From Tessaracoccus timonensis (GTDB lineage Bacteria; Actinomycetota; Actinomycetes; Propionibacteriales; Propionibacteriaceae), in the NCBI RefSeq assembly GCF_900343145.1, contig NZ_LT996886.1, positions 1,798,001-1,862,000 of the forward strand: a DNA stretch of 64,000 nt, written 5' to 3'. Below, piece by piece: positions 31,971 to 48,202 of the stretch; the stretch's first letter is position 1; every line of letters starts with the position of its first letter. Both the position numbers and the translations under genes were made by a program. The notes below the pieces were generated by a model. It was not told the DNA's origin, made no database searches, and saw nothing but the letters and a program-made list of their open reading frames with translations.

Positions 31971-32879
31971 CTATCCCTTGACCGCACCTTCGGTGATGCC
32001 GGCAATGAACTGCTTCGAGCCGAGCGCAAAGATGATGATGAGCGGCACGACGGAGATGAGCGACGACGCCATCAGCATGCCGTAATCAGTGCCGTGTGCG
32101 GTCTTCAACTGCGACAGCGCTACCTGCAACGTGAGCTTGCTGGGGTCGTTCAACACAATCAACGGCCACATGAAGTCGTTCCATGCGCCGATGAACGAGA
32201 ACATGCCCAGGAACGCGAGCGCAGGGCGAATGGTGGGCAGGCACACGTGGAGGTACTGCCGCCAGAATCCACAGTTATCAATGCGGGCGGCTTCCAGCAG
32301 CTCGCGCGGAATGGCATTCGACGCGTACTGACGAAGCCAAAACACACCAAATGCGCTCGCCAGGGAGGGGAAGATGAGCGCCTTGAGCGACCCAACCCAG
32401 CCCAGCTTGCTCATGAACAGGAACTGGGGAATCGTCGCGAGCTGTGCCGGGAGGAGGAACGTCGCGAGCACGAGGCCAAACAGAATCCGTTTGCCCGGGA
32501 ACTCGTACTTGGCAAAGGCGAACGCTGCCAGCGACGAAATGAAGAGCACGAGCACCGTCACGCTAATGGCCACGAACGCGGTGTTCGACATGGCCGCCCA
32601 GATGTTGATCTTGTCCATGATCGCGCCGACGTTGTCGTCGAGGCGATCGCCAGGCGTCATCACCGGTGGGAACTTGTAAATCACCGACGAGGGCTGGGAC
32701 GCCAGCACAAACATCCAGTAGAAGGGGAACACGGAAACGAGTGCGCCCAGGATGAGCAAAATGTGGCGTACCACCGCACCCCGATGGCGGCGCCACGACG
32801 GCCGACGCTTCGGGCGGGAGCCGGTTTCAATGGCTGCGCCTGCCAGAGCTGCCGGCACTGCGCGCTGGTTGATAGACAT
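31971..32879 (-). CDS. carbohydrate ABC transporter permease (MalG type)
   Basis: 302 residues, one of two inner-membrane channel subunits of a sugar importer. Six membrane helices are visible, preceded by a basic cytosolic N-terminus (RPKRRPSWRRHR). The EAA loop that contacts the ATPase reads ELLEAARIDNCGFWRQYLHV. Start ATG 32879 overlaps the stop of the partner permease (ATGA). No ATPase gene is present in the cluster, so an MsiK-like shared ATPase elsewhere is likely. Confidence 0.92.
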   Translation of the reverse strand: MSINQRAVPAALAGAAIETGSRPKRRPSWRRHRGAVVRHILLILGALVSVFPFYWMFVLASQPSSVIYKFPPVMTPGDRLDDNVGAIMDKINIWAAMSNTAFVAISVTVLVLFISSLAAFAFAKYEFPGKRILFGLVLATFLLPAQLATIPQFLFMSKLGWVGSLKALIFPSLASAFGVFWLRQYASNAIPRELLEAARIDNCGFWRQYLHVCLPTIRPALAFLGMFSFIGAWNDFMWPLIVLNDPSKLTLQVALSQLKTAHGTDYGMLMASSLISVVPLIIIFALGSKQFIAGITEGAVKG

Positions 32880-33859
32880 CAGCCCTTCACCTTTCGTTCG
32901 CGGGTGACCAGCCAGTTGATGATGGAGAAGAACATCACGACGACGAACACACCCCATGCGATCGTCGCGCCGTAGCCGTAGCGGTTCTCCTGGAACGCGA
33001 CGGAGTAGAAGTAGAGCACCATCGTCATACCCGAGTTGCCGACGCCGCCCGCCGCGGCCGCGCCAGACGCCTGCGACGAGGTGAGCACCTGGGATTCGGT
33101 GAAGCTTTGGAGCGAACCGATGGTGGACATCAGCGTGATGAACAGCACGATGGGACGCAGCTGCGGGAGCGTGATGCGGAAGAACGTCTGGAAGCCGTTC
33201 GCCCCGTCGATTGCAGCCGACTCGTACTGTGTCTTATCGATGGCCTGCAAACCAGCGAGGATCAGCAAGGCGTTGTAGCCCACGAATGACCAGGTGGTGA
33301 GGGCAGAGATAGCAATCTTGATGCCCCATTCGTTTTGTAGCCAAGCGATGTTCTCGAACCCGAACAGGTTGACGATCACGTTGGCCAAGCCAAACTGGCT
33401 GGAGAACAGCGAGCTAAACAGAATGCCCATCGCCACCATGGAGGTGACGTTGGGAATGAGGTAGACCACGCGGTACGTGGTGGAGAAGCGCATCGTGGAG
33501 TTCAGCATGAGCGCGACGATCGTCGCCAAGACGAGCGTCGGCACCGTGCCCATCACCCACAAGATGAGCGTGTTGACCAGCGACTTGTAGAACAGCGGAT
33601 CAACGATGAGGTACTTGAAGTTCTCAAACCCGATGAAGTGGATGTCGCCGAGTCCGGACCAGTTCGTGAATGCCAGCGCCATGGTGAACACCATGGGCAT
33701 GGCGCCGAACATAAAGAAGAAGAAGAAATACGGGGAAACCGCAAAGTATTGCGGAAGTGAACGCTTCATCCGTTTCCCCAGCGACGGTGTTCTCACCTCA
33801 GCAATGGGAGGGAGGGTGGCGGTGGCGCCACCCTCCCCGGCAGTTATTCCCGGATTCAT
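32879..33859 (-). CDS. carbohydrate ABC transporter permease (MalF type)
   Basis: 326 residues with about six membrane helices; the first (PYFFFFFMFGAMPMVFTMAL) is unusually Phe-rich. The EAA loop reads YESAAIDGANGFQTFFRITL. A Gly/Ala-rich periplasmic loop (SSQASGAAAAGGVGNSG) lies near the C-terminus. It overlaps both neighbours by one to four bases, giving the order binding protein, MalF-type, MalG-type. With the adjacent glycosidases it probably imports mannose- and N-acetylhexosamine-containing oligosaccharides (inference). Confidence 0.92.
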   Translation of the reverse strand: MNPGITAGEGGATATLPPIAEVRTPSLGKRMKRSLPQYFAVSPYFFFFFMFGAMPMVFTMALAFTNWSGLGDIHFIGFENFKYLIVDPLFYKSLVNTLILWVMGTVPTLVLATIVALMLNSTMRFSTTYRVVYLIPNVTSMVAMGILFSSLFSSQFGLANVIVNLFGFENIAWLQNEWGIKIAISALTTWSFVGYNALLILAGLQAIDKTQYESAAIDGANGFQTFFRITLPQLRPIVLFITLMSTIGSLQSFTESQVLTSSQASGAAAAGGVGNSGMTMVLYFYSVAFQENRYGYGATIAWGVFVVVMFFSIINWLVTRERKVKG

Positions 33860-35163
33860 CGAACCGTGAGCCCCACTTGCTTTGCGATTCGCTTCGCCTG
33901 CGTTACGGCGTCGTTCCAGGCCTTCTCACGATCCTTCTTCGACGACTCGATGAGATCGATCTCGGCGAGGAAGGGAGCCTGCACAGCGCTGGACTGCGGG
34001 TCTTCGTACAGCGGGCGTACGGTCTCCGCAGCGTGGCCGAACACCTCGGCAGCTTTCTGTCCACCCAGGAACTCGACGGGGCCAGCCACTTCCTCCATAT
34101 CGAAGGATTCCGGCGTTGCCGGGAAGTTGCCCTTGTCCTGGTACTCGTAGGCCTGGTTCTTCGGGTTCAGGATGTACTTGATGATCTCGAATGAAGCCTC
34201 CGGGTCCTTCGCGCCCTCGGGGATAGTGAGGAACGAACCACCGCTGTTGGTGGCTTCACCCGGGTGCTCACACACGCGCCACTTGCCCGCAGTCTCGGGC
34301 GCATCCACCATGAGGTCTGCCAGGTGCCAGGACGCACCGAAGTCGGCGGGCAGCTTGCCCTCGTTGATGGCAGCGGCGGAGTCTGCGGTGTTAGACTCGA
34401 TGCTCGCGACGATGCCGGCGTCGTAGGCCTTCATCATGGTGTCCCAGGCGCTACGGATGTGGTCCTGGTCGCCGATGAACACGCCTTCTTCGTCGATGAA
34501 GCCCATGCCGGATTGCGGCCAGGCAGTGTCGAACAGGCTGGCGCAGTTGCGGATGAGGTAAGTGTCGGGCTTCTTCGAAAGGAGCTGCTTGCCGAGCTCG
34601 AAGTAGGCCTCCCACTCGCGGATTTCCTCAGCAAGCTTCTTCGGGTCGTAGGTGAGACCGGCGCCCTCGAACACGTCAACGCGGTAGAACAGCGCGGTGG
34701 GGCCGATGTCGATCGGAATACCCAGCTGCTTGCCGTCCTTCGTCGTGGCCTGGTCCCACTTGTACTCCAAGTAGGTGTCCTTGATGTCCTTGGCGCCAAT
34801 CGAGTTGAGGTCGACGAAGTACTTGTCCTGGGAGAGGAAGAAGGGGATGTCCTGGCCCTTCACGCCGGTGATGTCTGGCAAGCCGCTGCCAGCTGCGAAG
34901 GTGGTGGTGAGCTTCTGTTTGAAGTCGCCGCCAATGATGTCCTGGCGAAGCTTGTACTGCTTCAGATCCTTTGCGACGCCCTCCAGCACCTTCTTGCCAA
35001 AGCCTTCAGGCCAGGTCCACAGCACCATGTCTTTCATGTCGCCGGTGCCCTTGTCTGAGGAGCCTCCGCCGCCAGTGGAGCCCGCGGTGGAACATGCGGA
35101 GAGCCCGAGCAAGCCGAGCGTGGCAGCCCCTCCGCCGAGTAGGTGTCGCCGTGACAAGTTCAT
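33856..35163 (-). CDS. extracellular solute-binding lipoprotein of sugar ABC importer
   Basis: 435 residues. The N-terminus NLSRRHLLGGGAATLGLLG then LSAC is a lipoprotein signal with a twin-arginine-like start; Cys ~23 would be lipidated. The mature part is a family 1-type periplasmic binding fold with DMVLWTWPEGFGKK at the start and many aromatic residues, as expected for an oligosaccharide site. ATG 35163 is preceded by AAGGAG. First gene of the leftward operon, 320 bp from the divergent DeoR gene that probably controls it. Confidence 0.92.
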   Translation of the reverse strand: MNLSRRHLLGGGAATLGLLGLSACSTAGSTGGGGSSDKGTGDMKDMVLWTWPEGFGKKVLEGVAKDLKQYKLRQDIIGGDFKQKLTTTFAAGSGLPDITGVKGQDIPFFLSQDKYFVDLNSIGAKDIKDTYLEYKWDQATTKDGKQLGIPIDIGPTALFYRVDVFEGAGLTYDPKKLAEEIREWEAYFELGKQLLSKKPDTYLIRNCASLFDTAWPQSGMGFIDEEGVFIGDQDHIRSAWDTMMKAYDAGIVASIESNTADSAAAINEGKLPADFGASWHLADLMVDAPETAGKWRVCEHPGEATNSGGSFLTIPEGAKDPEASFEIIKYILNPKNQAYEYQDKGNFPATPESFDMEEVAGPVEFLGGQKAAEVFGHAAETVRPLYEDPQSSAVQAPFLAEIDLIESSKKDREKAWNDAVTQAKRIAKQVGLTVR

Positions 35164-35484
35164 TGTTCGCTCCTTGAGGTAGCTCGCCGTGGTTCCCCTT
35201 CCATGGTTGTCACGGCGTTGTGCGTAGTCGATCAAATTGCTTCAACAAAGCGTGATGGGGAGTGCTGGCCTGGGCTTCGTGTCGCAGGGGTTGCTCCGTT
35301 GCGACGCGACGTCGGAAGATGTGACAACCCTGCAAATACCCTTTGACAAGCATATTCATGTCTTCGGATCCGCCTTGATCGAGTGTGTGAGACTCAATCT
35401 AGCACCCCGGCGCCTGATTTGAAAGAGAATGAGCGAGTTGTGCAAAACTGAGCGAAATAGGTTTACCTGCGCTACGGTGTATCT
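35164..35484. promoter_or_regulatory. divergent control region of the sugar locus
   Basis: A 321-bp region with no gene between the ABC operon and the DeoR operon. It contains two direct copies of TGAGCGA (35430-35436 and 35449-35455, 19 bp apart, about two helical turns), close to the DeoR start and plausible as its operator. It also has a GAGTGTGTGAGACTC imperfect palindrome at about 35391-35405 and a TTTGACA -35-like element at 35342. Assignments are by inspection only. Confidence 0.4.
35473..35478 (+). promoter_or_regulatory. -10 box of a leaderless DeoR gene promoter
   Basis: TACGGT is followed by 6 nt and the GTG at 35485; no SD is visible. The TGAGCGA repeats lie in the -35 to -10 zone, suiting autorepression. 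Confidence 0.4.
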
Positions 35485-36240
35485 GTGTTGAAAGCATCTC
35501 GGCAGGAGTCAATGTTGCGCCTCTTGGAGGTGCGACGTCGTGCTGGCATCGTCGATATTGCGCGCGAGCTCCAGGTCAGTGAAGCCACCGTGCGACGTGA
35601 CGTTGCGGAGCTCGAAGAGCAAGGCATGGTGACGCGCTCTTGGGGTGCTGTGGAGCTTGCCCACACCGCCGACGACCCGTTCCATGAGACTCTCGCACGC
35701 GAAGGCTTGGCGAAAGAGCGCATTGCACGCGCGGCTGCGAAGCTGGTGCAGCCTGGCCAGACCGTCATCCTCGACATTGGCACGACCGTGCATTATTTGG
35801 CGCTGGCGTTGCAAGAGATGCCGCTCACGGTCATTACCCCTTCACTCGCCGCATTCGAGGTGTTCCGCAACCAGCCCAACATCTCTGTGGTGCTACTGGG
35901 CGGACGGTGGTCTGAGCCGTATCAGTGTTTCGAGGGAGACCCCGTCGGGGATGCGCTCGCTCGCCAGCATGCCGACATCGCGTTTCTTGGCTGTTCCGGG
36001 GTGGGGGATACCGGACGAATCCGAGACACGTCGTACACCCAGGCCGCCATGAAACGGGCCATGCACGCAGCAGCGTCCCGCACCTATTTGCTCGCCGATG
36101 CCAAGAAATTCCCTGGGCAAGGCAACAGCGCCCCCTTCGACCTCGCTGTCGTTGACGGGCTCATCACCGACTTAGACCCGCTCCCAGAAAAGCTGGCTGA
36201 GCAGGTTGCAGCGATCGATCTGGAGGTCATTCACGCATGA
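35485..36240 (+). CDS. DeoR family transcriptional regulator of the glycan locus
   Basis: 251 residues. The N-terminal helix-turn-helix (ASRQESMLRLLEVRRRAGIV, DIARELQVSEATVRRDVAEL) is typical DeoR, followed by the sugar-phosphate-sensing domain with TVILDIGTTVHYLA and the C-terminal ADAKKFPG. Members usually repress sugar operons and respond to a phosphorylated sugar. Its stop overlaps GH4 (ATGA), so it is the first gene of the rightward operon and probably controls both divergent operons. The inducer could be a product of the PfkB kinase in this locus (inference). Confidence 0.92.
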   Translation: MLKASRQESMLRLLEVRRRAGIVDIARELQVSEATVRRDVAELEEQGMVTRSWGAVELAHTADDPFHETLAREGLAKERIARAAAKLVQPGQTVILDIGTTVHYLALALQEMPLTVITPSLAAFEVFRNQPNISVVLLGGRWSEPYQCFEGDPVGDALARQHADIAFLGCSGVGDTGRIRDTSYTQAAMKRAMHAAASRTYLLADAKKFPGQGNSAPFDLAVVDGLITDLDPLPEKLAEQVAAIDLEVIHA

Positions 36241-37622
36241 AACTCACCATTCTGGGCGGCGGCGGTTTCCGTGTGCCCCTCGTGTACAAGGCGCTCATGG
36301 AAGATGAATCTGACGAACGCGTCGACGAGGTGCGCCTCTACGACACCGATCCGGTGCGGCTCGCGGCCATCAACAAAGTGCTCGAAGAACTCGGTGCCAC
36401 GTCGGCCGACGCCCCTCGCGTCGTCGCGACCACCGACCTCGGAGAGGCCCTTGCCGGGGTGGACTTCTTGTTCTCCGCCATGCGCGTGGGCGGCACCGAA
36501 GGGCGCGCCGCCGACGAGCGCATCGCGCTCCACAACGGCGTCATCGGCCAGGAAACGGTGGGAGCGGGCGGCATCTCGTACGCGCTGCGCGGCATTCCCG
36601 TCGTCATCGGTTTGGTAGAGCAACTGCGCAAGCACGCGCCCGACGCCTGGGTGATCAACTTCACCAACCCCGCCGGCGTCATCACTGAGGTGATGCAGCA
36701 ATCGCTCGGCGACCGCGTCGTCGGAATCTGCGACTCCCCGGTGGGGCTCGCCCGTCGCGTGCTCACCACGCTGCAGGGCGAGGGAATCGTCGCCGACGAT
36801 GTGCCCCCGCTCACCGCTGCCGATGGGCGAGTACGCCTTGACTACGCCGGCCTCAACCACCTGGGCTGGCTGACGGGCCTGCACGTGGACGGCGAAGACG
36901 TGCTGCCGCGGTTGCTCGAGCGTGCCGACCTCATCGAATCCCTTGAGGAGGGTCGCCTCTTCGGCGCGCCGCTCGTGCAAGCGCTGGGATGCCTGCCCAA
37001 CGAATACCTCCACTACTACTACTTCTCGCGAGAAGACCTCCTCCTCGACAGCAAATCGGAAGCCACGCGCGGGGTGTTCCTCGCCCAGCAACAGCGTCAC
37101 TTCTATGAAGCAGCGACGAACGCGACTGGCGACGTCCACGCGCTGTGGGAGCAGTGCCGCCTGGAGCGCGAAGCCACCTACATGGCGTCCAACCGAGACG
37201 CAGCCGGCGGCTTCGAGCGCGACGTTGCCGACCTCGAGACCGGGGGATACGACAAGGTGGCGTTGGCGATCATGCATGCCATCGCCAACGACGTGCCCGC
37301 CCGGCTCATCTTGAACGTAGCCAACCGGGGCATACTGCCCGACCTGGACGACACCGCGGTGGTGGAAGTTCCCTGTGACGTCGACGGCAACGGCATCCAC
37401 CCGCTGCCGGGCGCCGCGCTGCCGGACCATGGGCGAGGCATCGTCGTGAACGCGAAGTATGTGGAACGCCGCACCATTGCAGCCGCACTCCACGCATCCC
37501 GCAGCGACGCGGTGCTGGCGCTCGCGCACCACCCGCTCGTGGACTCCGTGAACGTGGCGCGCGACATCCTGGACGACCTCGTCGAGCACTTCCACGAACT
37601 CGCCTACCTGGAGAAGCACTGA
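36237..37622 (+). CDS. GH4 family glycosidase (6-phospho-glycosidase-like)
   Basis: 461 residues of the NAD- and metal-dependent GH4 family, which cleaves glycosides by oxidation-elimination at C3. TILGGGGFRVPLVYKAL is the Rossmann loop; VINFTNPAGVITE and GICDSPVGL provide the metal-binding region with the conserved Cys; GLNHLGWLTG holds the catalytic segment. Most relatives act on 6-phospho-beta-glucosides, but no PTS gene is here, so the substrate may be an unphosphorylated or kinase-made sugar. Second gene of the rightward operon, between DeoR and the alpha-mannosidase. Confidence 0.88.
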   Translation: MKLTILGGGGFRVPLVYKALMEDESDERVDEVRLYDTDPVRLAAINKVLEELGATSADAPRVVATTDLGEALAGVDFLFSAMRVGGTEGRAADERIALHNGVIGQETVGAGGISYALRGIPVVIGLVEQLRKHAPDAWVINFTNPAGVITEVMQQSLGDRVVGICDSPVGLARRVLTTLQGEGIVADDVPPLTAADGRVRLDYAGLNHLGWLTGLHVDGEDVLPRLLERADLIESLEEGRLFGAPLVQALGCLPNEYLHYYYFSREDLLLDSKSEATRGVFLAQQQRHFYEAATNATGDVHALWEQCRLEREATYMASNRDAAGGFERDVADLETGGYDKVALAIMHAIANDVPARLILNVANRGILPDLDDTAVVEVPCDVDGNGIHPLPGAALPDHGRGIVVNAKYVERRTIAAALHASRSDAVLALAHHPLVDSVNVARDILDDLVEHFHELAYLEKH

Positions 37623-37623
37623 C

Positions 37624-40600
37624 ATGCATGACGACCGCAAGCTTGTAGAAGAGCGCATCGAGGATCTGCGAGAGCGCCTCATCGGCAAGGAGTACGTAAC
37701 GCTCACGAAGCTCAACGTTGAGGCGTGGAAAGCGCCAGACGAGCCCGTCCCCTTTGCGGAGGCGGCCAGTCAGCAGTATGAGCCGTTCCCCGTCGGCACC
37801 TGGTGGGGGCCGGCATGGAGCACGTGGTGGCTGCGGCTCGACGGCATCCTCCCCGACGATGCCCCCCGCGAGCGTGTCGAACTCCGTGTTGACCTGGGGT
37901 TTTCCGGTGACTGGGCGGGCAACCAGTCGGAGGGGCTCGTCTACACGTGCGACGGGGTGCCGCTGAAGGGGCTCAACCCCATGAATCGCACCGTGCCGCT
38001 CACGTTCGGGTCGATCGCCGAGCAACTTGAGCAGGAAGGCTCGCCACTGGTGGCGGCCGACGGTTCGGTGCGGCTGATGGTGGAAGCCGCCGCCAACCCC
38101 AACCACGGGGAAGACATGGCCAAGTACGGCGACAAGGCCACCATGCCGATCGAGCCCATGTGGCAGTTCAAGGCTGCGGACCTGGTGGTGCGCAACGACG
38201 ATGTCTGGCACCTTCAGCTCGACCTCGAGGTGCTCGACGGGCTCATGCGCGAGCTCTCCGTCGACTCGACCTGGCGCGCCACCCTCCTTCGTGGGCTCGA
38301 GCGCGCCGCCGACGTCGTCGACCAGGGCAGCATTGAGGAACAAGCCGCCGCCGCGCGCGCCGTGCTTGCGCCCTTGCTGAACAGCGGCCCGCATGGTTCC
38401 GCGCAGCGCATGACCGCCGTCGGGCACGCGCACATCGACTCCGCCTGGTTGTGGCCCATCCGGGAGACCCGTCGGAAGGTGGTACGTTCGCTGTCGAACG
38501 TCGTCGCGCTCGCCGACGAATACCCCGACTTCCACTTCGCCTGCACCGCTCCACAGCACCTCGAGTGGCTGAAGGAAGACGCGCCGATGGTGTTTGAGCG
38601 GATGCGCGAAGCCATCCAGCGCGGCCAATGGCACATGGTGGGCGGCACCTGGATAGAACCGGACGCCAACCTCCCCGGCGGCGAGGCGATGGTTCGACAG
38701 CTCACCAGCGGCCTTCGGTGGCTGCGCGAGGAGCTGGATGTCACCACCGACTGCCTCTGGCTGCCCGACTCGTTCGGCTACTCCGGCGCGCTGCCGCAGA
38801 TCGCCAAACTCGCCGGCATGCGGTGGTTCTTCACCCAGAAAATGAACTGGAACCAGACGAACACGCTCCCGCACCACACGTTCTGGTGGGAGGGCATCGA
38901 CGGCACGCGTATCTGGACGCACTTCCCGCCCGTCGACTGCTACGACTCCATCCTCTCCTCAGACCAGGTGAAGTTCGCTGAACGAAACTTCAAGGAAAAG
39001 GGCGTTGCCAAGGAGTCGTTGTTGCCGTTTGGTTATGGCGACGGTGGTGGCGGCCCCGTGCGCGAAATGGTGGAACGTGCCCGTCGGCAGAGCAATCTCG
39101 AGGGGTCGCCGGTGCTCACCATGGGTAGCCCGCAAGACTTCTACGACGCCGCTCGCGCCGAGCGCGATGAGCTCCCCGTGTGGGCCGGCGAGCTGTACTT
39201 CGAGTTCCACCGCGGTGTCCAGACCTCGCAACTGGCCTTGAAGCAAGGCAACCGACGCGTCGAGGCCGGCCTCGCAGCGCTGGAATGGCTCGGCACGCTG
39301 GCGATACTTCGCGGACATGCGTACGACGCCGAGGGCGTCGAACAGCTCTGGCGACGCATGATGCTGCTGCAGTTCCACGACATCCTCCCGGGTAGCGCCA
39401 TCGCCTGGGTGAACGAAGAAGCGCGCGAGGAATACACGTCGCTACTGCAAGAGATTGAGGAACGTATCGACGCGCTACGTCGCGACGTGTTCCCGGGGGA
39501 GCAGTGCGCCATTGCGAACCCCGCGCCGTTCGCGAGGCGCGAGCTGGTCGAGGTCGAGGGGCGACGGGTGCTCGTCGACGTCGGCCCGCTCAGCGTGGTG
39601 GCTCTTGCCGACGCCGAAGCAACCCCGACGCACGCCGTCCAGGCCCAGCGCCAAGACGAGGGCATCGTGCTCGACAACGGTTTGGTACGCGTCGTCGTCG
39701 CGCCGGACGGAACGGTGACGAGCCTCGTCGACGTGGAAGCCGAGCGCGAACTGCTGCTTCCCGACGAGCGGGCCAACCTTCTGCGCCTGCACCCCGACCA
39801 CCCCAGCTGCTTCGACGCGTGGGAACTCCAGGCACAGTACCGCCACCACGTGTGGGAGGTCGACGACGTCGAACAGGTTGCGCTGGTGGAGGACACGCCG
39901 CTTCGCGCCCAGGTGGATGTGGTTCGGTCCTTCGGCGACTCTCGGGTGACGCAGTCGCTGTGGCTGGACGCGGACAGCAAGACGGTGCGGTTCGCCGTCG
40001 ATATCGACTGGCGCGAACGCTCCCGGGTGCTAAAGGTGGCGTTCCCCCTTGCGGTGAAGGCCACCCATGAGTCGTCCGAAATCCAGTTCGGACACGTGCG
40101 GCGCGCGCTGACGTCGAACACCAGCTGGGACGAAGCGCGCTTTGAGGTGCCCGGGCATCGTTGGACGCTGCTCGACGAACCGGGCTACGCCGTGGCGCTG
40201 TCGTACGACTCCTCCTACGGCCACGACGTGGAACCCGCCGGCGCTGATGAGCACGCGCCCACCGCGGGTGTGGTGGCGAGCTACACGTTGCTGCGGGCGC
40301 CACTGTCGCCGGATAAGGAATCCGACCAAGGACAGCACCGCATCCAGTACCAGCTCACCGTCGACGCCGACGTGCGCGCGGCGAGCGAGGCGGGCATCGC
40401 GCTCAATCAGCCACTGCGTGTGCTGGACGGCGCGGGCGCGAGCGAGGCCGCCGTGGCGTCGCTGGAGATGCTCCGCGGACATGCGGTGATTGATGCGGTG
40501 AAGCCGGCATTCGACGAGTCCGGTGACATGGTGATCCGATTGCATGAGGCCACGGGCGGGCGGTCGCGCGTGCGGCTGCACCTCGGGTTCGACGCCCAGG

Positions 40601-40737
40601 GCATTCACGAGGTGGATCTCTTGGAGCAGCCGGTGGCCGAGCCCACTCAGCAGCGCCTGGGAGACCTGCGCGACGGCGCGGTGGAACTCACGCTTCGTCC
40701 CTTCCAAATCCTCACGTTGAAGGTGTGTGCCAAATGA
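37624..40737 (+). CDS. GH38 alpha-mannosidase
   Basis: 1,037 residues, with no signal peptide, hence cytosolic. A zinc-dependent retaining alpha-mannosidase. The zinc site is in VGHAHIDSAWLWP (about 265-277) and the nucleophile Asp in LWLPDSFGYSGALPQI near 381; WIEPDANLPGGE supports the active site, and a long beta-rich C-terminal half follows. It starts one base after the GH4 stop and overlaps the next gene by four bases. With GH125 and GH20 nearby it suggests stepwise breakdown of mannose-rich glycans after import. Confidence 0.94.
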   Translation: MHDDRKLVEERIEDLRERLIGKEYVTLTKLNVEAWKAPDEPVPFAEAASQQYEPFPVGTWWGPAWSTWWLRLDGILPDDAPRERVELRVDLGFSGDWAGNQSEGLVYTCDGVPLKGLNPMNRTVPLTFGSIAEQLEQEGSPLVAADGSVRLMVEAAANPNHGEDMAKYGDKATMPIEPMWQFKAADLVVRNDDVWHLQLDLEVLDGLMRELSVDSTWRATLLRGLERAADVVDQGSIEEQAAAARAVLAPLLNSGPHGSAQRMTAVGHAHIDSAWLWPIRETRRKVVRSLSNVVALADEYPDFHFACTAPQHLEWLKEDAPMVFERMREAIQRGQWHMVGGTWIEPDANLPGGEAMVRQLTSGLRWLREELDVTTDCLWLPDSFGYSGALPQIAKLAGMRWFFTQKMNWNQTNTLPHHTFWWEGIDGTRIWTHFPPVDCYDSILSSDQVKFAERNFKEKGVAKESLLPFGYGDGGGGPVREMVERARRQSNLEGSPVLTMGSPQDFYDAARAERDELPVWAGELYFEFHRGVQTSQLALKQGNRRVEAGLAALEWLGTLAILRGHAYDAEGVEQLWRRMMLLQFHDILPGSAIAWVNEEAREEYTSLLQEIEERIDALRRDVFPGEQCAIANPAPFARRELVEVEGRRVLVDVGPLSVVALADAEATPTHAVQAQRQDEGIVLDNGLVRVVVAPDGTVTSLVDVEAERELLLPDERANLLRLHPDHPSCFDAWELQAQYRHHVWEVDDVEQVALVEDTPLRAQVDVVRSFGDSRVTQSLWLDADSKTVRFAVDIDWRERSRVLKVAFPLAVKATHESSEIQFGHVRRALTSNTSWDEARFEVPGHRWTLLDEPGYAVALSYDSSYGHDVEPAGADEHAPTAGVVASYTLLRAPLSPDKESDQGQHRIQYQLTVDADVRAASEAGIALNQPLRVLDGAGASEAAVASLEMLRGHAVIDAVKPAFDESGDMVIRLHEATGGRSRVRLHLGFDAQGIHEVDLLEQPVAEPTQQRLGDLRDGAVELTLRPFQILTLKVCAK

Positions 40738-41744
40738 AACTGCTATTGATCTGCCTCGACGGTGTGCGCGCCGACTTCGCGTTGCCCGAGGAGGTGGCGA
40801 GCAACCCGGATTTCGCGCAACCATCGCACCCAGCCGACCCGAGGTTCAGCGTCGGTGCTCCGGACCACACCGTGCAGGATTTCCCAGCGGGGCTTGCCCC
40901 GACGCTCGCCCGCCTCGCCCGCGGGGACGAGGCGTCGGATGGCGTGTGCCTGCCCATGTGGATGACGCCTCCCACCGATTCGGGGCCGGGGTGGTCGTCC
41001 ATCCTGACCGGCTCCACCCACGAGGAATGCAACGTGTGGTGGAACGAGTTCGTCGGCCACGACATGGCCAGGCGCCCCGACCTGCTGTCTCGCGTGTTCT
41101 TCGCCAACCCGCGAGCGCGGACGCTCGCAGCGGCCACCTGGACCGCCTTCACCGTCGGCGTCGGCCCGGGGCCCATCTTGCAGCAGCGCGTCGACCAGCA
41201 GCGCACGAGGCAACACGCCGTGTTCCAACCCGATCTCACCAACGGCATTGAGGCGGCGGACGACGCCGTGTGTACGTGGGCGTGCCACAGGCTCCTTCAC
41301 GAGGGGCCAGATGCGTCGGTGGTGTACTTCGAGAGCGTCGACGCCGCCGGCCATGCCGCGGGCTCGGACAGCAAGGAGTACCGCGAGGCCATCCAGCGCG
41401 TCGATGAGCGAGTGCGTTACCTGGTCAAGGCAGTGGCGGAGCGGCACGAGCAGCTCGGTGAAGACTGGGTTGTAGCCGTCACCACCGACCACGGGCACAA
41501 GCCTGAGGGTGGGCACGGCGAGGACGAGGTCGAGGTGCGCCGAAGCTTCCTGATCCTGCACCGCATCGGTAGCCAATTGCCCGCCGAGATGCACGAGCGC
41601 GGCGCGCTGCGAAGCGAAGACGTCATGTGGCTCCTGCTGGACCTCATGGGCGCCCGGCAGGGCGAGATGGAAGGAGACGACGTCGGCGTGCTGAAGGACA
41701 TCGATCCGGTGGGGCCGACGCGGGACCTCCGCTTCGAATGGTGA
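40734..41744 (+). CDS. alkaline-phosphatase-superfamily phosphodiesterase-like protein
   Basis: 336 residues, cytosolic. LLLICLDGVRADFA carries the first metal Asp; TDSGPGWSSILTG is the expected nucleophile region; VYFESVDAAGHAAG and VTTDHGHK give further metal ligands, the pattern of type I phosphodiesterase/nucleotide pyrophosphatases. The substrate is unknown. Inside a mannosidase operon it might remove phosphate or phosphodiester groups from phosphomannan-type glycans, which is speculation. ATGA overlap with GH38 fixes the start; it ends the first rightward operon. Confidence 0.8.
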   Translation: MKLLLICLDGVRADFALPEEVASNPDFAQPSHPADPRFSVGAPDHTVQDFPAGLAPTLARLARGDEASDGVCLPMWMTPPTDSGPGWSSILTGSTHEECNVWWNEFVGHDMARRPDLLSRVFFANPRARTLAAATWTAFTVGVGPGPILQQRVDQQRTRQHAVFQPDLTNGIEAADDAVCTWACHRLLHEGPDASVVYFESVDAAGHAAGSDSKEYREAIQRVDERVRYLVKAVAERHEQLGEDWVVAVTTDHGHKPEGGHGEDEVEVRRSFLILHRIGSQLPAEMHERGALRSEDVMWLLLDLMGARQGEMEGDDVGVLKDIDPVGPTRDLRFEW

Positions 41745-41784
41745 CACATCCGGCGGTTGCATCCGCTGGGTGGGTAGAGCGTCG

Positions 41785-41867
41785 AGCTAACCCAATATCC
41801 ACATTCGTTTCGCTGAAACGGCGATTTTGGCGTGATTTGGCAAACGAATGTGGATATCGGGTTAGCT
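41785..41867. repeat. long palindrome, family A copy 3
   Basis: 26-bp arms (41785-41810 and 41842-41867) pair with one mismatch; the loop contains GGCGATTTTGGCG. It lies between convergent genes and ends 26 bp before the PfkB stop. Confidence 0.87.
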
Positions 41868-41893
41868 GCGCTGTGGTCCCACCTGGCTGGCGG

Positions 41894-42832
41894 CTACTGC
41901 GCCAGCAGCTCCGCGACGCGGCGAGCGCGAGGGTCGTCGTGGGCGCGGGCAGCTTGGAGCACCTCGGCCAGGCGCGGCGGATCGGCGGCTCCGCTCTCGC
42001 CCGCCAAGATAGTGCTGGCGACGAACGCCGCGACGAGGAGTTGCTCTTCGAGCGCATCGGTGAGGCCCGAGGCGACGGCAAACGCCGCCAGCGTCGCGTC
42101 GCCGGCGCCGGTGGTGTTGCGTGGGCGCACGGGGAAGGCAGCCACGCTGGCTTCCTGTCCGGTGGCAGCATCCACCGCAACCATGCCGTCGGCGCCACGG
42201 GTGACGACGACGGTGGGCACGCGGCAGGTCAACTGCCGGGCAGCGTCCATGGGGTCGCTCAGCTGCGTGAAGGCGCGAGCTTCCAGGTCGTTCAGCATCC
42301 ACACATCGGCGCCTTCGATGCCTGCGAGTTGCTCGTCGCCCCACAAATCCGTCTCGTCGAAGCCCCTCGACGCAAACACGCGAGCCCCGCGGCGGCGTGC
42401 GTCGACGAGCCAGGGGAGCGTCGAGTCGCGCAAGTCGATGACGATGGCGTCCGTGTCCACGTTGGTGAGGGAGTGTCCGACCGGCTTTGCAGGGGGATGC
42501 TCGACCGTCACCATCGCGCGGTCAGCGCTGGTGGCGAGGGCCACCGTCGTGGGGAGTTGCCAGTTGGTGTAGTGCTCGCAGTGGGTGGTGCCGATGCCTT
42601 CGAGGCGCAGGCTGCGCAGCAGCCGCTCGCTGGCTTCGTCGTCGCCGACGGGGGAGCACAGCTCGGTGCTCACACCGAGGCGAGCTGCCACTCGCGCCAT
42701 GGTGGCCACGCCACCCCAGCCCTCGTGCAGTCCTGTGGCCTGCAGCTCGTGGCCGGGCACGGGCATCGCTGGGACGCCGGTCATGATGATGTCGCGGTAC
42801 GTGATACCGACGGTCAGCATGCGTGTGGGCAC
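41894..42832 (-). CDS. PfkB family carbohydrate kinase
   Basis: 312 residues, ribokinase-like. WGGVATMARVAARLG near the N-terminus is the sugar-binding GG region and RNTTGAGDATLAAFAVA has the anion hole and catalytic Asp. The substrate could be mannose, fructose or N-acetylhexosamine derived from the surrounding glycosidases; the sequence alone does not decide. I start at GTG 42832, four nt after GGAG; ATG 42820 is an alternative. The gene is the only leftward one in this part and is divergent from HAD-GH20-GH125 over 139 bp. Confidence 0.85.
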   Translation of the reverse strand: MPTRMLTVGITYRDIIMTGVPAMPVPGHELQATGLHEGWGGVATMARVAARLGVSTELCSPVGDDEASERLLRSLRLEGIGTTHCEHYTNWQLPTTVALATSADRAMVTVEHPPAKPVGHSLTNVDTDAIVIDLRDSTLPWLVDARRRGARVFASRGFDETDLWGDEQLAGIEGADVWMLNDLEARAFTQLSDPMDAARQLTCRVPTVVVTRGADGMVAVDAATGQEASVAAFPVRPRNTTGAGDATLAAFAVASGLTDALEEQLLVAAFVASTILAGESGAADPPRLAEVLQAARAHDDPRARRVAELLAQ

Positions 42833-42971
42833 GGCACTCCTTCTCACGGACGAACAAGCCAAAGTCTTGCACAGACGCATCTCTGCGAGCACCTGGGTAG
42901 GGTGGTCGTGTGCTGTCTGAGCTGCATATCCAACGAAGTAGCAGGCACGCCGGCATGGAGGTGTTGATCGA

Positions 42972-43649
42972 ATGAATCGTGCTCTCCCGCAGCACATCGG
43001 CGCAGTGTTGTTCGACATGGACGACACACTCGTCGACTCCGAGCAAGCTTGGTTCGATGCCACCCGTCAACTCTGGGAAGAGTACGAGGTATCGAAGGGC
43101 TTCGACGATGACGTATCTGATGAGCTTCGAGGCGGCACCATTGAGGATGTCGTCGCGGTGTTCAGCCGTGTCCGTCCGGGCGTAGACGCCGACGTAGCGG
43201 AACGCCGAATGCTGGAGCTCCTGCAGGAACACTTGGCGGACGGTGTGGAGCCGATGCCGGGGGCGGAAGCCCTGCTCGAGGCGCTCTCCGGGACGATACC
43301 GCTGGCTGTGGCCTCGAACTCGCCGTCGGCCATCGTGAAAGCCACGATGCAATCGCTCGGCTGGCAGCGCCGTTTCGTTGCGATGCTGGGCACCGAGGAT
43401 GTGGAGCGCCCCAAGCCGGCGCCTGATCTGTACCTCGCCGCAGCCGAGCGTTGTGGCGTGGCGCTGGAGCACTGCGTCGTGCTGGAAGACTCCCGCACCG
43501 GCGCTACGGCAGCCAGGGAGGCCGGCGCGTTCGTCGTCGCGGTTGGCCCATTCGCCGCGGATTTGGGGCACGTGCACGTGCCCTCGCTCGATCACCCGAT
43601 GCTGCAGTCTTGGCAGCCTCAACCAATCGCACACGCGAAGGAGCTGTGA
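42972..43649 (+). CDS. HAD superfamily hydrolase (sugar-phosphatase-like)
   Basis: 225 residues. VLFDMDDTLVDSE carries the nucleophile and acid Asp, VASNSPSAIVKA is motif II, and RPKPAPDLYLAAAE with VLEDSRTGATAA gives motifs III and IV. The helical cap lies between about residues 20 and 85, the layout of beta-phosphoglucomutase/sugar phosphatases. GGAGG lies about 10 nt before the ATG. It is the first gene of the operon HAD-GH20-GH125 and may dephosphorylate or isomerise a sugar phosphate made by the PfkB kinase (inference). Confidence 0.88.
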   Translation: MNRALPQHIGAVLFDMDDTLVDSEQAWFDATRQLWEEYEVSKGFDDDVSDELRGGTIEDVVAVFSRVRPGVDADVAERRMLELLQEHLADGVEPMPGAEALLEALSGTIPLAVASNSPSAIVKATMQSLGWQRRFVAMLGTEDVERPKPAPDLYLAAAERCGVALEHCVVLEDSRTGATAAREAGAFVVAVGPFAADLGHVHVPSLDHPMLQSWQPQPIAHAKEL

Positions 43650-45184
43650 TGCCCACCATCATCCCCACGCCCGCTCACGTCGACTGGGGGCAGGGTTCGT
43701 TCCTGCTGCCCAACCCCCTCCCAGTGCGTGGTGGCGGCGTTCCCGCTGAGGTCCTGGCCGAGCGTCTCTCGCGGTCGGCCGGTGTGCAGGTGCTTGCCGA
43801 CGGGGTCGGCGCCGGCGTGGACTTCGTCGAAGATACTTCGCTCCCCGACGAGGGGTACCGCCTCAGCGTCAACGCGGACGGTGTGCGCATTGGGTATTCC
43901 GCGCAGGCCGGCGCGTCGTGGGCGGTGCAGACGCTGCTGCAACTTCTGCCGCGCGAGGTGCACACCACCGGCCCCTTGGACCCGGCCACGCTCGTTGTGC
44001 CGTTCGTGGAGATCGTCGACGAGCCAGCGCTGGCATGGCGCGGCTCCATGGTGGACGTGGCAAGGCATTTTCTGCCGCTCGACGGGTTGCTCAGGCATCT
44101 TGATGTGATGGCCATGCACAAGCTCAACGTGCTGCACCTGCACCTCACCGACGACCAAGGCTGGCGCTTCCCCGTGCCAGGCTGGCCGAAGCTCACGGAG
44201 GTGGGGGCGTGGCGGCCGGGTACCCTCGTCGGACTTCAGCCGCCTCCCGACGAGAACGACTGCGACGATGTGGCCGAGCACGACGGCATCCCGCACGGCG
44301 GGTTCTACACAGCCGAAGAGATCGGCAGGCTCGTGGAGCACGCGAACCGGCTCGGCATCACCGTGGTGCCGGAGGTGGATATGCCCGGCCACATGGAGGC
44401 CGCGGTGGCGGCCTACCCGGAGCTGGGCGCGTCGGGTGTGCAGCACCCGCGCACGTGTTGGGGTATTTCCGAGCATGTGCTGCGGCTGGATGACAACGTG
44501 ATTCAGTTCTGCAAGGACGCGCTGGACGCCGTCATGAATCTATTCCCTGACTCGCCCGTGCACGTCGGGGGCGACGAGTGCCCGGGGTCGGAATGGCTCG
44601 CCGACGAACGCTCGCAGGCCACGATGCGTCGCGAAGGGCTCTCTACTCCTGCCGAGGGGCAGGCGTGGTTCGAGCGCATCGTGTGCGAGCACGTGCTGGC
44701 GCGTGGACGTCGCGTGATTGCGTGGGACGAGGTGCTGGAGGGCGGCGTGCCCGACGACGTCACCATCATGGTGTGGCGCGACGCGGCACAGGTTGGGGAC
44801 GTGATTAGCAAGGGGTACGACGTACTGGCCGCGCCCACCCAGTACACCTACCTCGACTACTGCCAGGGCAAGTGGGATGACCACCCGCTCAACTACGGGC
44901 ATTACACGCCCCTCGAAAAGACGCAGGATTTCGCCCAGATGCTCGCGGCGCTCCCGGATGGCCCGGGGCGCCTGCTGGGCGGGCAGTTCCAACTGTGGGG
45001 AGAGTATGTGCGCGACTGGGCGAAAGCCGAGTACATGACGTGGCCTCGAGGCACGGCGCTGGCACAGCAGTTCTGGGCGGGCAGCGCGGCCTCGGAGAGT
45101 GAGCTGGGGGCGTTGCTCCGCAGGCTCACGGTTATGGGTATCAGCTGGTGTCGGGAAGGAATGGCATGGACGAGCGAACAGTGA
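43649..45184 (+). CDS. GH20 beta-N-acetylhexosaminidase
   Basis: 511 residues without a signal peptide. A short alpha/beta GH20b-type N-terminal domain (about 1-120) precedes the barrel, which opens WRGSMVDVARHFLP; LHLHLTDDQGWRFP and the catalytic pair in VHVGGDECPGSEW (about 306-318) are intact. It removes terminal beta-linked GlcNAc/GalNAc by substrate-assisted catalysis. TGATG overlap with HAD and a 19-nt overlap with GH125 indicate tight coupling. Its presence with alpha-mannosidases points to N-glycan fragments. Confidence 0.93.
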   Translation: MPTIIPTPAHVDWGQGSFLLPNPLPVRGGGVPAEVLAERLSRSAGVQVLADGVGAGVDFVEDTSLPDEGYRLSVNADGVRIGYSAQAGASWAVQTLLQLLPREVHTTGPLDPATLVVPFVEIVDEPALAWRGSMVDVARHFLPLDGLLRHLDVMAMHKLNVLHLHLTDDQGWRFPVPGWPKLTEVGAWRPGTLVGLQPPPDENDCDDVAEHDGIPHGGFYTAEEIGRLVEHANRLGITVVPEVDMPGHMEAAVAAYPELGASGVQHPRTCWGISEHVLRLDDNVIQFCKDALDAVMNLFPDSPVHVGGDECPGSEWLADERSQATMRREGLSTPAEGQAWFERIVCEHVLARGRRVIAWDEVLEGGVPDDVTIMVWRDAAQVGDVISKGYDVLAAPTQYTYLDYCQGKWDDHPLNYGHYTPLEKTQDFAQMLAALPDGPGRLLGGQFQLWGEYVRDWAKAEYMTWPRGTALAQQFWAGSAASESELGALLRRLTVMGISWCREGMAWTSEQ

Positions 45185-46434
45185 CGAACCCCGTCGGAGA
45201 GAAGCTACGGGCCCGGCTGGACGCGGAGGCCGAGCGCATTGCTGCGACGGTGGGGGCGCCCGCCGCGGAACGGTTCCGCGCCATGATGGTGAACACCTGG
45301 ACGACGACGATGACCCGCCGCGGTGATCGCACCTTCGTCATCACCGGCGACATTCCCGCGATGTGGCTGCGTGACTCGTCGGCACAGGTGTGGCCGTTCC
45401 TGAGGATGACCGACGTGGACGAGGTGCGCGAGGTGCTGCTGGGCATGGTGCGCGAGCAGTGGCGCTGCATCGGTCTGGACCCGTACGCGAACGCGTTTAA
45501 CGAGTCGGAGAACGACGCGCACCATGATGCCAATGACCTCGATCTCCATCCTGGTGTGTGGGAGCGCAAGTACGAGATCGATTCGCTGGCGTTCCCCGTG
45601 CTGCTCGCGCATCGCCTCCGTGGGCTCGAGGGTTGGGACGACGAGCTCGACGCTGCCCTGCGCGAGGGCTGCGGGCGCATCGTCGCGTTGTGGCGGCTGG
45701 AACAAGACCACTTCGGGGCGTCCACCTATCGTCACGTGCGCGAATCGGAGCCGTGGGACACCTTGGGCGACGACGGACGCGGCACGCCCGTGGCTATCAC
45801 AGGCATGACCTGGAGCGGGTTCCGGCCATCCGACGATGCTTGTCAGTACGGGTACAATATCCCCGCGCAGCTCATGGCCGTGCACGCGCTCGGGCTGATT
45901 GGGGAGTTCGCGCGCGATTGGGGCGACGAGGAGCTCGGCGCCTCGGCCGGCAGGCTGGCGCAGGAAATCGGTGACGGTGTCGAGCGTTACGGCATGGAGG
46001 GGGAGCGATACCTCTACGAAGTGGACGGGCTGGGCGGCAAGCTGGCCATGGACGACGCCAACATGCCGTCGTTGCTCTCCTTGCCGCTCACGGCTGGGTT
46101 CGCGCTCGACGACCCGCGGTACCGGGCCACTCGCGCATGGGTGCTGAGCGACGAGAACCCGTTCTTCTACACGGGCGAGTTCGCGTCGGGTGTGGGCAGT
46201 CCGCACACGCCGGAGGGGTACGTCTGGCATATCGCGCTGGCGGTGCAGGGGCTCACGGGCGACGAGGCCGAGGCCAGGCGGTGCCTCGACGTGATCCTCG
46301 CCACCGACGGCGGCACCGGGCTGACGCACGAGAGCTTCGATCCGAATGATCCGACGAAGTACACTCGGCCGTGGTTTTCTTGGTCGAACTCCATGGCGTG
46401 CGAGCTCATGCTGCGCATCGCGGAGGGAGCATAG
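45166..46434 (+). CDS. GH125 exo-alpha-1,6-mannosidase
   Basis: 422 residues of the (alpha/alpha)6 GH125 family (formerly DUF1237), inverting exo-alpha-1,6-mannosidases. GDIPAMWLRDSSAQVWPF, YEIDSLAFPVLL, TGMTWSGFRPSDDACQYGYNIPA (read in parts) and DANMPSLLSLPL are family hallmarks. No signal peptide. ATG 45166 has AAGGA 5 nt upstream and lies inside the GH20 gene. It would act with GH38 on the alpha-1,6 branch of mannose-rich glycans. Followed by a strong terminator. Confidence 0.93.
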   Translation: MDERTVTNPVGEKLRARLDAEAERIAATVGAPAAERFRAMMVNTWTTTMTRRGDRTFVITGDIPAMWLRDSSAQVWPFLRMTDVDEVREVLLGMVREQWRCIGLDPYANAFNESENDAHHDANDLDLHPGVWERKYEIDSLAFPVLLAHRLRGLEGWDDELDAALREGCGRIVALWRLEQDHFGASTYRHVRESEPWDTLGDDGRGTPVAITGMTWSGFRPSDDACQYGYNIPAQLMAVHALGLIGEFARDWGDEELGASAGRLAQEIGDGVERYGMEGERYLYEVDGLGGKLAMDDANMPSLLSLPLTAGFALDDPRYRATRAWVLSDENPFFYTGEFASGVGSPHTPEGYVWHIALAVQGLTGDEAEARRCLDVILATDGGTGLTHESFDPNDPTKYTRPWFSWSNSMACELMLRIAEGA

Positions 46435-47863: not shown

Positions 47864-48202
47864 GTGACCACCACGTCACTCACGAAGATCACGAGCGGAG
47901 ATGGCTACATTCAGGGCAGTCAGCTCGGCAAACTCGACGCTGGGCTGAAGTGGCCGTCTTGCATTGCTGCGCGAATCCTCCGAGGTGGGTCAACCCTCAC
48001 CTCCATCGCGGACGTCTCTGATGAAGAGCTGTTTGCCGAGGTTACTCGCAGGATGCAAGGAGAGCCGAAGGAGGCTAGCAATGCTGAGGCTGAGAAGAGC
48101 CCAGTCAGGTCGCTCGACGAGCACCGATGCAACAAGCTGATCGCCCATGCGCAACAAGTCGAGGCCGCTGCCGCGCCGGATGACCTGGAGGACGAGGAAT
48201 GA
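47864..48202 (+). CDS. unknown small protein paired with DUF3800
   Basis: 112 residues, not recognised. Residues ~1-45 (TSGDGYIQGSQLGKLDAGLK and following) are neutral; the rest is acidic and helical (SDEELFAEVTRRMQG ... AAAAPDDLEDEE). No membrane segment or catalytic motif. GTG 47864 lies about 9 nt after GGGAGG; ATG 47846 is an alternative. Codon third positions are less GC-biased than in neighbours, suggesting transfer. The stop overlaps the DUF3800 start (ATGA), so the two are a unit; it could be the partner or antitoxin-like subunit of that protein (inference). Confidence 0.55.
   Translation: MTTTSLTKITSGDGYIQGSQLGKLDAGLKWPSCIAARILRGGSTLTSIADVSDEELFAEVTRRMQGEPKEASNAEAEKSPVRSLDEHRCNKLIAHAQQVEAAAAPDDLEDEE

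Follow-up and report, generated by a model that had tools for sequence, protein, structure and literature searches.

Tessaracoccus timonensis belongs to the Tessaracoccus/Arachnia group of the Propionibacteriaceae and has a 2.76-Mb single-contig genome. The window analyzed here is the whole 64,000-nucleotide stretch C1:1798001-1862000 of this genome, and our subject is a locus at window positions 31971-46434 that encodes an ATP-binding cassette (ABC) importer, several glycoside hydrolases (GH) and a predicted phosphodiesterase (PDE) (Table 1). The minus-strand genes for a solute-binding protein (SBP) and two permeases are divergent from plus-strand genes for, in order, a DeoR-family regulator, GH4, GH38, the PDE, a HAD phosphatase, GH20 and GH125, while the gene for a PfkB-type sugar kinase lies on the minus strand between those for the PDE and HAD. 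Within each run neighbouring genes overlap or abut in an operon-like fashion, and the ATG of permease B overlaps the stop codon of permease A. Judged by eye from the translation, the SBP begins with a lipoprotein-type signal (MNLSRRHLLGGG...LSAC); its best solved relatives are 5ixp and 8bfy. A preliminary description of this DNA had proposed a complete-looking N-glycan utilization locus. Profile searches recovered all the families that it named, far above chance, but its inventory had overlooked one gene, that for the PDE. Its view that the enzymes lack signal peptides agrees with their starts, judged by eye and not with a predictor, and the reported lack of an ATPase, a phosphotransferase system and an endo-glycosidase is consistent with the genes found inside the locus.

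Table 1. Features of the locus, with positions in the window and supporting matches (E, expectation value).
Feature	Position	Strand	Evidence or remark
ABC permease B (MalG/UgpE type)	31971..32879	-	PF00528 E 5.6e-14; UgpE-like, 131 bits vs cut-off 297
ABC permease A (MalF type)	32879..33859	-	PF00528 E 1e-9
Solute-binding lipoprotein (SBP)	33856..35163	-	SBP_bac_8 E 6.4e-26 (SBP_bac_8/1)
Possible DeoR operator	35430..35456	+	Three tandem TGANCRAA-like units, 9-10 bp apart, 29-55 bp upstream of deoR
DeoR-family regulator	35485..36240	+	DeoRC E 8.9e-40; HTH_DeoR E 2.3e-12
GH4 glycosidase, 6-phospho-glycosidase branch by sequence	36237..37622	+	PF02056/PF11975, both domains
GH38 alpha-mannosidase, Ams1-like	37624..40737	+	Four GH38 domains
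Alkaline-phosphatase-superfamily phosphodiesterase (PDE, predicted)	40734..41744	+	PF01663 E 5.3e-19; between GH38 and PfkB
PfkB-type sugar kinase	41894..42820	-	PF00294 E 4.3e-27
HAD phosphatase (beta-phosphoglucomutase/YqaB-like)	42972..43649	+	HAD_2 E 1.2e-30; TIGR02009 109 bits, under cut-off 153
GH20 beta-N-acetylhexosaminidase	43649..45184	+	PF00728 E 1.2e-96; best solved relative 3rcn E 8.8e-97
GH125 alpha-1,6-mannosidase	45148..46434	+	PF06824 E 4e-116; 3qt3 E 1.2e-108, 5m7i E 6.1e-108

The PDE carries the full two-metal set D, S/T, D, H, D, H, H of the alkaline phosphatase superfamily members that resemble nucleotide pyrophosphatase/phosphodiesterase (NPP). These positions are conserved in the alignment of its relatives (D9 in 78/81; S83, D203, D252, H253, and H261 in 81/81; H207 in 80/81), and we take them to be the metal ligands known from NPP and alkaline phosphatase. 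A fold search did not narrow down the substrate. The gene neighborhoods were compared for the best 80 of 415 PDE relatives in named genomes, where a partner was counted as present at a tblastn E <= 1e-10 with at least 40% of the query within the fetched stretch, so that genes beyond the stretch are missed. GH38 or GH4 is present in 25 of these 80 loci, and these 25 contain most of the remaining locus as well: SBP in 24, permease A in 25, permease B in 24, DeoR in 22, GH4 in 21, GH38 in 24, GH125 in 16, HAD in 16, PfkB in 14, and GH20 in 12. None of these partners occurs in the other 55 loci, save HAD in five. The carriers include Tessaracoccus, Cutibacterium, Arachnia, Dermabacter, Helcobacillus, Brachybacterium, Kineococcus, Acidipropionibacterium and metagenome-assembled genomes (MAGs) of Actinomycetaceae, together with Streptomyces violaceoruber, whose locus is without GH38. 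The PDE is retained in loci where GH20, HAD, and PfkB, and even GH125, are absent from the stretch.

Phylogeny also ties the PDE to this gene set. In an IQ-TREE tree of the PDE, from which the frameshifted row L109 was left out, 23 of the 24 rows labelled as mannose loci fall in one set of 24, the odd row being L110, and equal clustering of this label was reached in 0/500 shuffles. The main set, a Streptomyces row (L168) and a Microbacterium row (L153) stand apart from each other, although the placement of L168 is unsure because of its long branch. A FastTree topology of GH38 without supports, which took in 66 of 68 rows, has the PDE adjoining GH38 in three GH38 lineages, of which the third is L153 (Microbacterium testaceum), a locus without GH4; the GH38s paired with GH4 form at least two lineages, and the PDE is found with both. 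Because it is conserved next to GH38, GH4 and GH125 and repeatedly co-localized with GH38, the PDE belongs to the mannose locus.

The composition of the locus varies among relatives. From the side of GH125, 60 genomes were searched, 36 of them of the same genus, which gave 25 match rows, and 18 regions were taken. GH125 is present in 14 of the 36 same-genus genomes, and in 13 of these 14, the window's included, GH4, GH38, and the PDE lie alongside; permease A is 65-89% identical among the same-genus copies and 78-80% in Cutibacterium. Eight genomes of the same order carry GH125, and in none of the four fetched was the rest of the locus seen. Three layouts occur: with GH20, HAD, and PfkB (window, L072, L075, L076, L077, and the frameshifted L087), with HAD and PfkB but without GH20 (L071 and L073), and without all three (L081-L085). 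GH20, HAD, and PfkB are thus optional parts of the locus. The GH20 gene, taken as the element specific for N-acetylglucosamine (GlcNAc), is present in the window but optional in the related loci. From the side of GH38, 394 genomes of the class were searched and matches at E <= 1e-60 were found in 96; the 40 regions inspected comprised the 18 top rows, rows spread down the list, and the second GH38 of the window genome. GH4 lies next to GH38 in seven of these regions, all from one Streptomyces-like genus (g24), and the PDE in one of the seven. The PDE is therefore nearly fixed in the version of the locus found in Propionibacteriaceae, Dermabacteraceae and Actinomycetaceae, and occasional in the Streptomyces-like version.

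Further phosphoesterases occur in related loci. Eight of the 25 contain a protein, X471, of which seven aligned members share D12, G53-D54, G93-N94-H95-D96, H185, and G216-H217. This invariant D, GD, GNHD, H, GH pattern is presumably the signature of calcineurin-type metallophosphoesterases; X471 had no match in Pfam, NCBIfam, or PDB sequences, and its class is assigned by these motifs. The member at L076:8684-10099 (minus strand) and its relatives combine the calcineurin motifs with a lectin-like C-terminus, and a Streptomyces-like member has a signal-like start, by eye, and a C-terminal Laminin_G_3 domain. A gene of the inositol-monophosphatase family (PF00459), which the window locus does not have, is found in three of the 25 loci, and two Actinomycetaceae loci run PDE-HAD-PF00459. 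Neither X471 nor PF00459 was present in the stretches of the other 55 PDE loci. In Tessaracoccus caeni a permease and an ATPase are followed by a GDPD-PF00459 fusion (L071:2075-3619) that runs into the DeoR gene of the locus. The count of GDPD in the 25 loci is 0/25 because the stretch fetched for L089 starts inside that gene.

The GH4 enzyme groups with 6-phospho-glycosidases by sequence. Its nine best solved relatives (E 5e-51 to 3e-42) include eight 6-phospho-glucosidases or maltose-6'-phosphate glucosidases and one "cellulase IBT99"; the top relative is GlvA (E 5e-51), and other GH4s follow only from 4.9e-20, about thirty orders weaker. GlvA and BglT need 6-phosphorylated substrates, according to the part of the source available to us (PMC10628242). 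The glycine loop reads GGGGFRVP in the window GH4, unlike GGGSTFTP in GlvA and GGGSSYTP in 1s6y, and for this reason its phosphate requirement may differ from the GlvA type. A starch or cellulose locus, to which the preliminary description had already preferred mannose-GlcNAc fragments, was rejected, as enzymes of that kind were not seen in the locus and the GH4 is not near AglA. No curated subfamily model was reached by the PfkB kinase. At ~440 kb the same genome has another GH4-DeoR pair (G000:C1:440521-447010; L204, 9521-16010), which faces away from an SBP-permease-permease-PfkB run and has no mannosidases with it; two relatives (L205 and L206) have this paralogous arrangement too. It suggests a module of GH4, PfkB, DeoR and an importer that gained mannosidases and the PDE. 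In nine regions that, like the one in Table 1, lie upstream of deoR, eight tandem operator pairs were found, vs a shuffle mean of 0.03 (maximum 1), for a pattern picked after inspection and shuffles that preserved base composition only. The tandem arrangement upstream of deoR is convincing, but the PfkB-HAD promoter of the window contains only two separate TGANCRAA-like units, so that a shared operator or common regulon across the locus was not shown.

Elsewhere in the genome, one UgpC/MsmK-type ATPase scores above its curated cut-off (476 bits; C1:1504696-1505787, ~0.33 Mb from the locus), and no relatives of the other locus proteins were found in the 12 kb around it. No ATPase local to the locus was found, and three other ATPases of the genome were rejected as partners, since by eye their neighbours or sequences resemble other transporters. 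The GH85 profile had no match in the genome, while GH18 was not searched. The GH5 profile PF00150 matched a GH35 only, and this model may miss GH5_18; the GH2 profile PF02836 matched a 999-codon frame (319 bits) and a GH2/DUF2804 protein; and the GH130 profile PF04041 matched one protein marginally (28.9 vs cut-off 26) that fits GH32 better (40.6 bits). The DUF2804 fusion is a single protein of 924 residues in the region G000:C1:2376581-2377009 (L211, 79-2853). There seems to be no clear beta-mannosidase in the genome, but one may be encoded outside the locus, given the GH2 proteins, the marginal GH130 match and the possibly missed GH5_18. A gene of the IolB/KduI type lies at 810 kb next to genes that by eye resemble iolD and iolC, and IolB/KduI-type genes are strong in 12/12 genomes with the locus. 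A second GH38 (43% identical) lies at 1.0 Mb behind an SBP and two permeases, from which a ROK-type regulator gene diverges (G000:C1:1001714-1009176; L221, 4714-12176); this is possibly the plain mannoside importer of the organism. A GH76 without apparent signal peptide beside another SBP at ~560 kb (G000:C1:559868-562355; L207) may represent an intracellular alpha-1,6-mannan system. Next to the locus itself, GH125 is followed by AzlC and AzlD, families unrelated to the locus, and downstream of azlCD by a DUF3800 protein (window 48199-48957).

Several described systems resemble the locus in part. The hypothetical N-glycan-processing locus 2 of Cutibacterium acnes (S6 Fig) contains GH4, GH38, GH125, GH20, a HAD phosphatase, a sugar kinase, a regulator, an SBP and permeases; in the portion of the article seen, it includes "hypothetical proteins", the activity of the GH4 is given as unknown, and the authors state that a beta-mannosidase candidate is absent (PMC6160142). 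Four Cutibacterium loci in our set (L096, L097, L100, and L107) run GH4-GH38-PDE-HAD-GH125 with GH20 and PfkB beyond, differing from the window in that HAD directly precedes GH125 and that GH20 and PfkB lie beyond it. Their SBP, permeases, GH4, GH38, PDE and GH125 are 57-80% identical to those of the window, and their DeoR, GH20, HAD and PfkB 38-52%. Going by position in these relatives, the C. acnes gene after GH38 that is drawn among the hypothetical proteins is likely to be this PDE. The CPL and NgtS-NgtP1-NgtP2 system of Streptococcus pneumoniae shares GH38, GH125, GH20, a kinase, and an SBP with two permeases, but has in addition GH92, GH29 and a ROK kinase, is fed by EndoD (GH85), and lists neither GH4 nor a phosphodiesterase in the table of the source as seen in part (PMC5215778). 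The yeast alpha-mannan pathway of Bacteroides thetaiotaomicron combines GH38 and GH125 with phosphatases on phosphorylated mannan, but differs in having GH76, GH99, and GH92, and GH4 is not named in the sections available (PMC10154615). In Streptomyces and Kitasatospora, the csn cluster encodes an importer (csnEFG), a GH4 (csnH) and a putative oligosaccharide kinase (csnK), but, as far as the excerpt goes, is devoted to chitosan oligosaccharides under the repressor CsnR (PMC5635096); the Streptomyces-like GH4s of our own comparison (33-38% identical) may or may not be csnH. Loci of the type SBP-permease-permease-GH38, such as L221, share the importer beside GH38 and differ in that GH4, PDE, GH125, and DeoR were not in the fetched stretch. 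Among the matches listed, no open-access paper dealt with bacterial catabolism of glycosylphosphatidylinositol (GPI) glycans or described a locus of this type with a phosphodiesterase. The locus type is already in print in outline, while the PDE opens its label "N-glycan" to concrete doubt.

The gene families give good support to the earlier proposal that an alpha-mannose-rich glycan is imported and then trimmed by exo-acting enzymes inside the cell, with the ATPase supplied from elsewhere. Beyond this, we tentatively favour, at somewhat less than even confidence, the reading that the imported alpha-mannosyl oligosaccharide bears a phosphodiester and is broken down in the cytoplasm. The scavenging locus would be controlled by DeoR, and the lipoprotein SBP would bind an alpha-mannose-rich oligosaccharide freed by something else, to be imported through the two permeases, probably powered by the single UgpC/MsmK-type ATPase of the genome. 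In the cytoplasm, GH38 and GH125 would strip alpha-mannose, in line with the varied linkages and the alpha-1,6 linkage attributed to these exo-alpha-mannosidase families in the text seen (PMC10154615), and GH20 would take off a beta-N-acetylhexosamine (HexNAc) residue. The PDE would cleave the glycan phosphodiester, be it phosphoethanolamine-mannose, mannose-1-phospho-6-mannose or phospho-inositol, and HAD would remove the phosphate, joined in relatives by the metallophosphoesterase or the inositol-phosphatase-family enzyme. GH4 would split the last glycoside, with or without prior phosphorylation by PfkB. The analysis shows the gene content and order, their conservation, the repeated co-localization and the intact site of the PDE; we infer from these the order of the steps, the action of the PDE on the imported glycan, that of GH4 on the glycan core and the identity of the glycan. 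If the glycan does carry a phosphodiester, its leading candidates would be a GPI-type glycan or fungal phosphomannan. Joint action of GH38, GH125 and phosphatases in fungal mannan breakdown is described in the accessible part of one report (PMC10154615), and another, likewise seen in part, reports that phosphoethanolamine or phosphorylcholine decorates GPI, fungal and invertebrate glycans and that the metallophosphoesterase PGAP5 takes phosphoethanolamine off GPI mannose (PMC10704324).

A GPI-type glycan is the candidate that would give most enzymes a role, as GH20 could act on a HexNAc side chain, GH4 on glucosaminyl (GlcN)-inositol, the PDE and metallophosphoesterase on phosphoethanolamine, and the inositol-phosphatase on the rest. 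In this version the PDE would strip phosphoethanolamine from the Man-GlcN-inositol glycan, GH38 and GH125 would demannosylate it, GH4 would split glucosaminyl-inositol, and the inositol would enter the iol pathway. That this is the first catabolic cluster for the GPI-anchor glycan or related inositol-phosphate mannans nevertheless seems unlikely. Several observations weigh against a phosphodiester-bearing substrate or its GPI version. No obvious enzyme for the Man-alpha-1,4-GlcN bond of GPI exists among the locus families, and the enzyme roles are family assignments, with no known activity for any locus protein. In the fold comparison the PDE comes about as close to sulfatases, alkaline phosphatases and mutases as it does to diesterases (within ~2 Z units). 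PF00459 was tested in two of the three loci, L112 and T. caeni, and its domains there fall below the curated cut-offs of all named functions, so that an "inositol" function of these genes is not established, and IolB-type genes do not single out the locus, as they are also strong in 8/12 genomes without GH125. In G307, which is among the 14 same-genus genomes that carry GH125, the gene is a lone copy on a 13.7-kb contig and probably a true exception, since the ~6 kb on each side hold neither GH4, GH38, nor PDE; a second, split GH125 in G310 is a further exception. GH4 is missing from the fetched stretch of three PDE loci (Dermabacter, Helcobacillus and an Actinomyces MAG). Across the class, a GH38 region without GH4 and PDE is the commoner arrangement (33/40), and of the nine GH4-GH38 loci of genus g24 (L037 added with PDE and L199 without), seven have no PDE in the fetched stretch. 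Six of these seven contain a LacZ-like GH2, and L199, the one examined, a GH29 fucosidase. As to what might substitute for GH4 in Dermabacter and Helcobacillus, no glycosidase besides GH20 was seen by eye.

The main rival is plain N-glycan use, which we consider possible, if rather doubtful. High-mannose or paucimannose glycans ending in GlcNAc would be imported and trimmed to Man-beta-1,4-GlcNAc, GH20 would remove GlcNAc, GH4 would replace a beta-mannosidase after phosphorylation by PfkB, and the PDE would handle an occasional phosphate or an unrelated substrate. GH38 fits this, as its best solved relatives, followed by Ams1, are 7ufr, 7ufu, 7ufs and 7uft (E 7.5e-214 to 7.9e-203), which we take to be N-glycan mannosidases of Bifidobacterium longum. 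The GH29 in one and the GH2 in most of the Streptomyces-like versions would likewise suit a complex glycan. We know of no precedent, though, for a GH4 that acts on a manno-configured sugar. The family set equals that of the C. acnes locus 2, within the part of that article seen (PMC6160142), and overlaps with the S. pneumoniae set, to judge from the corresponding excerpt (PMC5215778); the NgtS structures 5SWA and 5SWB, however, are not among the sequence relatives of the SBP at E <= 0.001. The completeness suggested for the N-glycan pathway is not supported, as the locus has none of the families named for Man-beta-1,4-GlcNAc (GH2, GH5_18, and GH130) in the available text of PMC10154615, and the genome offers no clear beta-mannosidase besides the marginal GH130 match and no GH85. 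The reading is incomplete also because it leaves the conserved PDE, which is kept where other parts of the locus are missing, and the phosphoesterases of related loci unexplained.

Recycling or scavenging of actinobacterial phosphatidylinositol lipoglycans, of the phosphatidylinositol mannoside or lipomannan type, is distinctly unlikely. GDPD and the PDE would open glycerophospho-inositol, the inositol-phosphatase would clear it, and the mannosidases would clear the mannan. The GDPD-PF00459 fusion that adjoins the locus in T. caeni points in this direction, although it was found in one genome only. GH125 would be suited to an alpha-1,6 backbone, genes for inositol catabolism are present in the genome, and the main mannose-locus set of the PDE tree is entirely actinobacterial; enzymes for such lipoglycans exist, for example mycobacterial LamH, in a source seen in part. 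The locus, however, lacks genes that would remove arabinan or acyl groups, and GH20 would be left without a role. A role of the PDE as a co-regulated passenger with a small metabolite as its substrate, as in organophosphate salvage, beside an ordinary mannoside pathway is very unlikely. Consistent with a passenger, the Streptomyces-like loci are often without a PDE, and of the 55 PDE loci that have neither GH38 nor GH4, 22 have the PDE downstream of an ABC ATPase, on the same strand and within ~2 kb (manual count); the tight, repeated linkage of the PDE to GH38 in many genera, usually directly after it, argues against this. Such ATPase-PDE loci (for example L122, L128, L132, L134, L142, L145, and L150, around 8.8-10.7 kb) perhaps represent an uptake-and-cleavage module for organophosphates, apparently so far unstudied. 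In the one ATPase examined (L134) the best model was the aminoethylphosphonate PhnT2 (378 bits vs cut-off 458), and the single binding protein that was inspected, from L128, belongs to SBP_bac_6.

The human-associated Cutibacterium, Dermabacter and Arachnia share the locus with other actinobacteria. If it does act on mannose glycans that bear a phosphodiester, it would open GPI glycans, phosphomannan or zwitterionic N-glycans to bacterial breakdown, and a locus now filed under "N-glycan" would be reassigned. Few specific phosphodiesterases are described for such glycans in the part of the literature source seen (PMC10704324), and the PDE and GH4 would then also be useful as analytical enzymes. 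If the substrate is a plain N-glycan instead, the GH4 would represent a novel way of cleaving Man-beta-1,4-GlcNAc.

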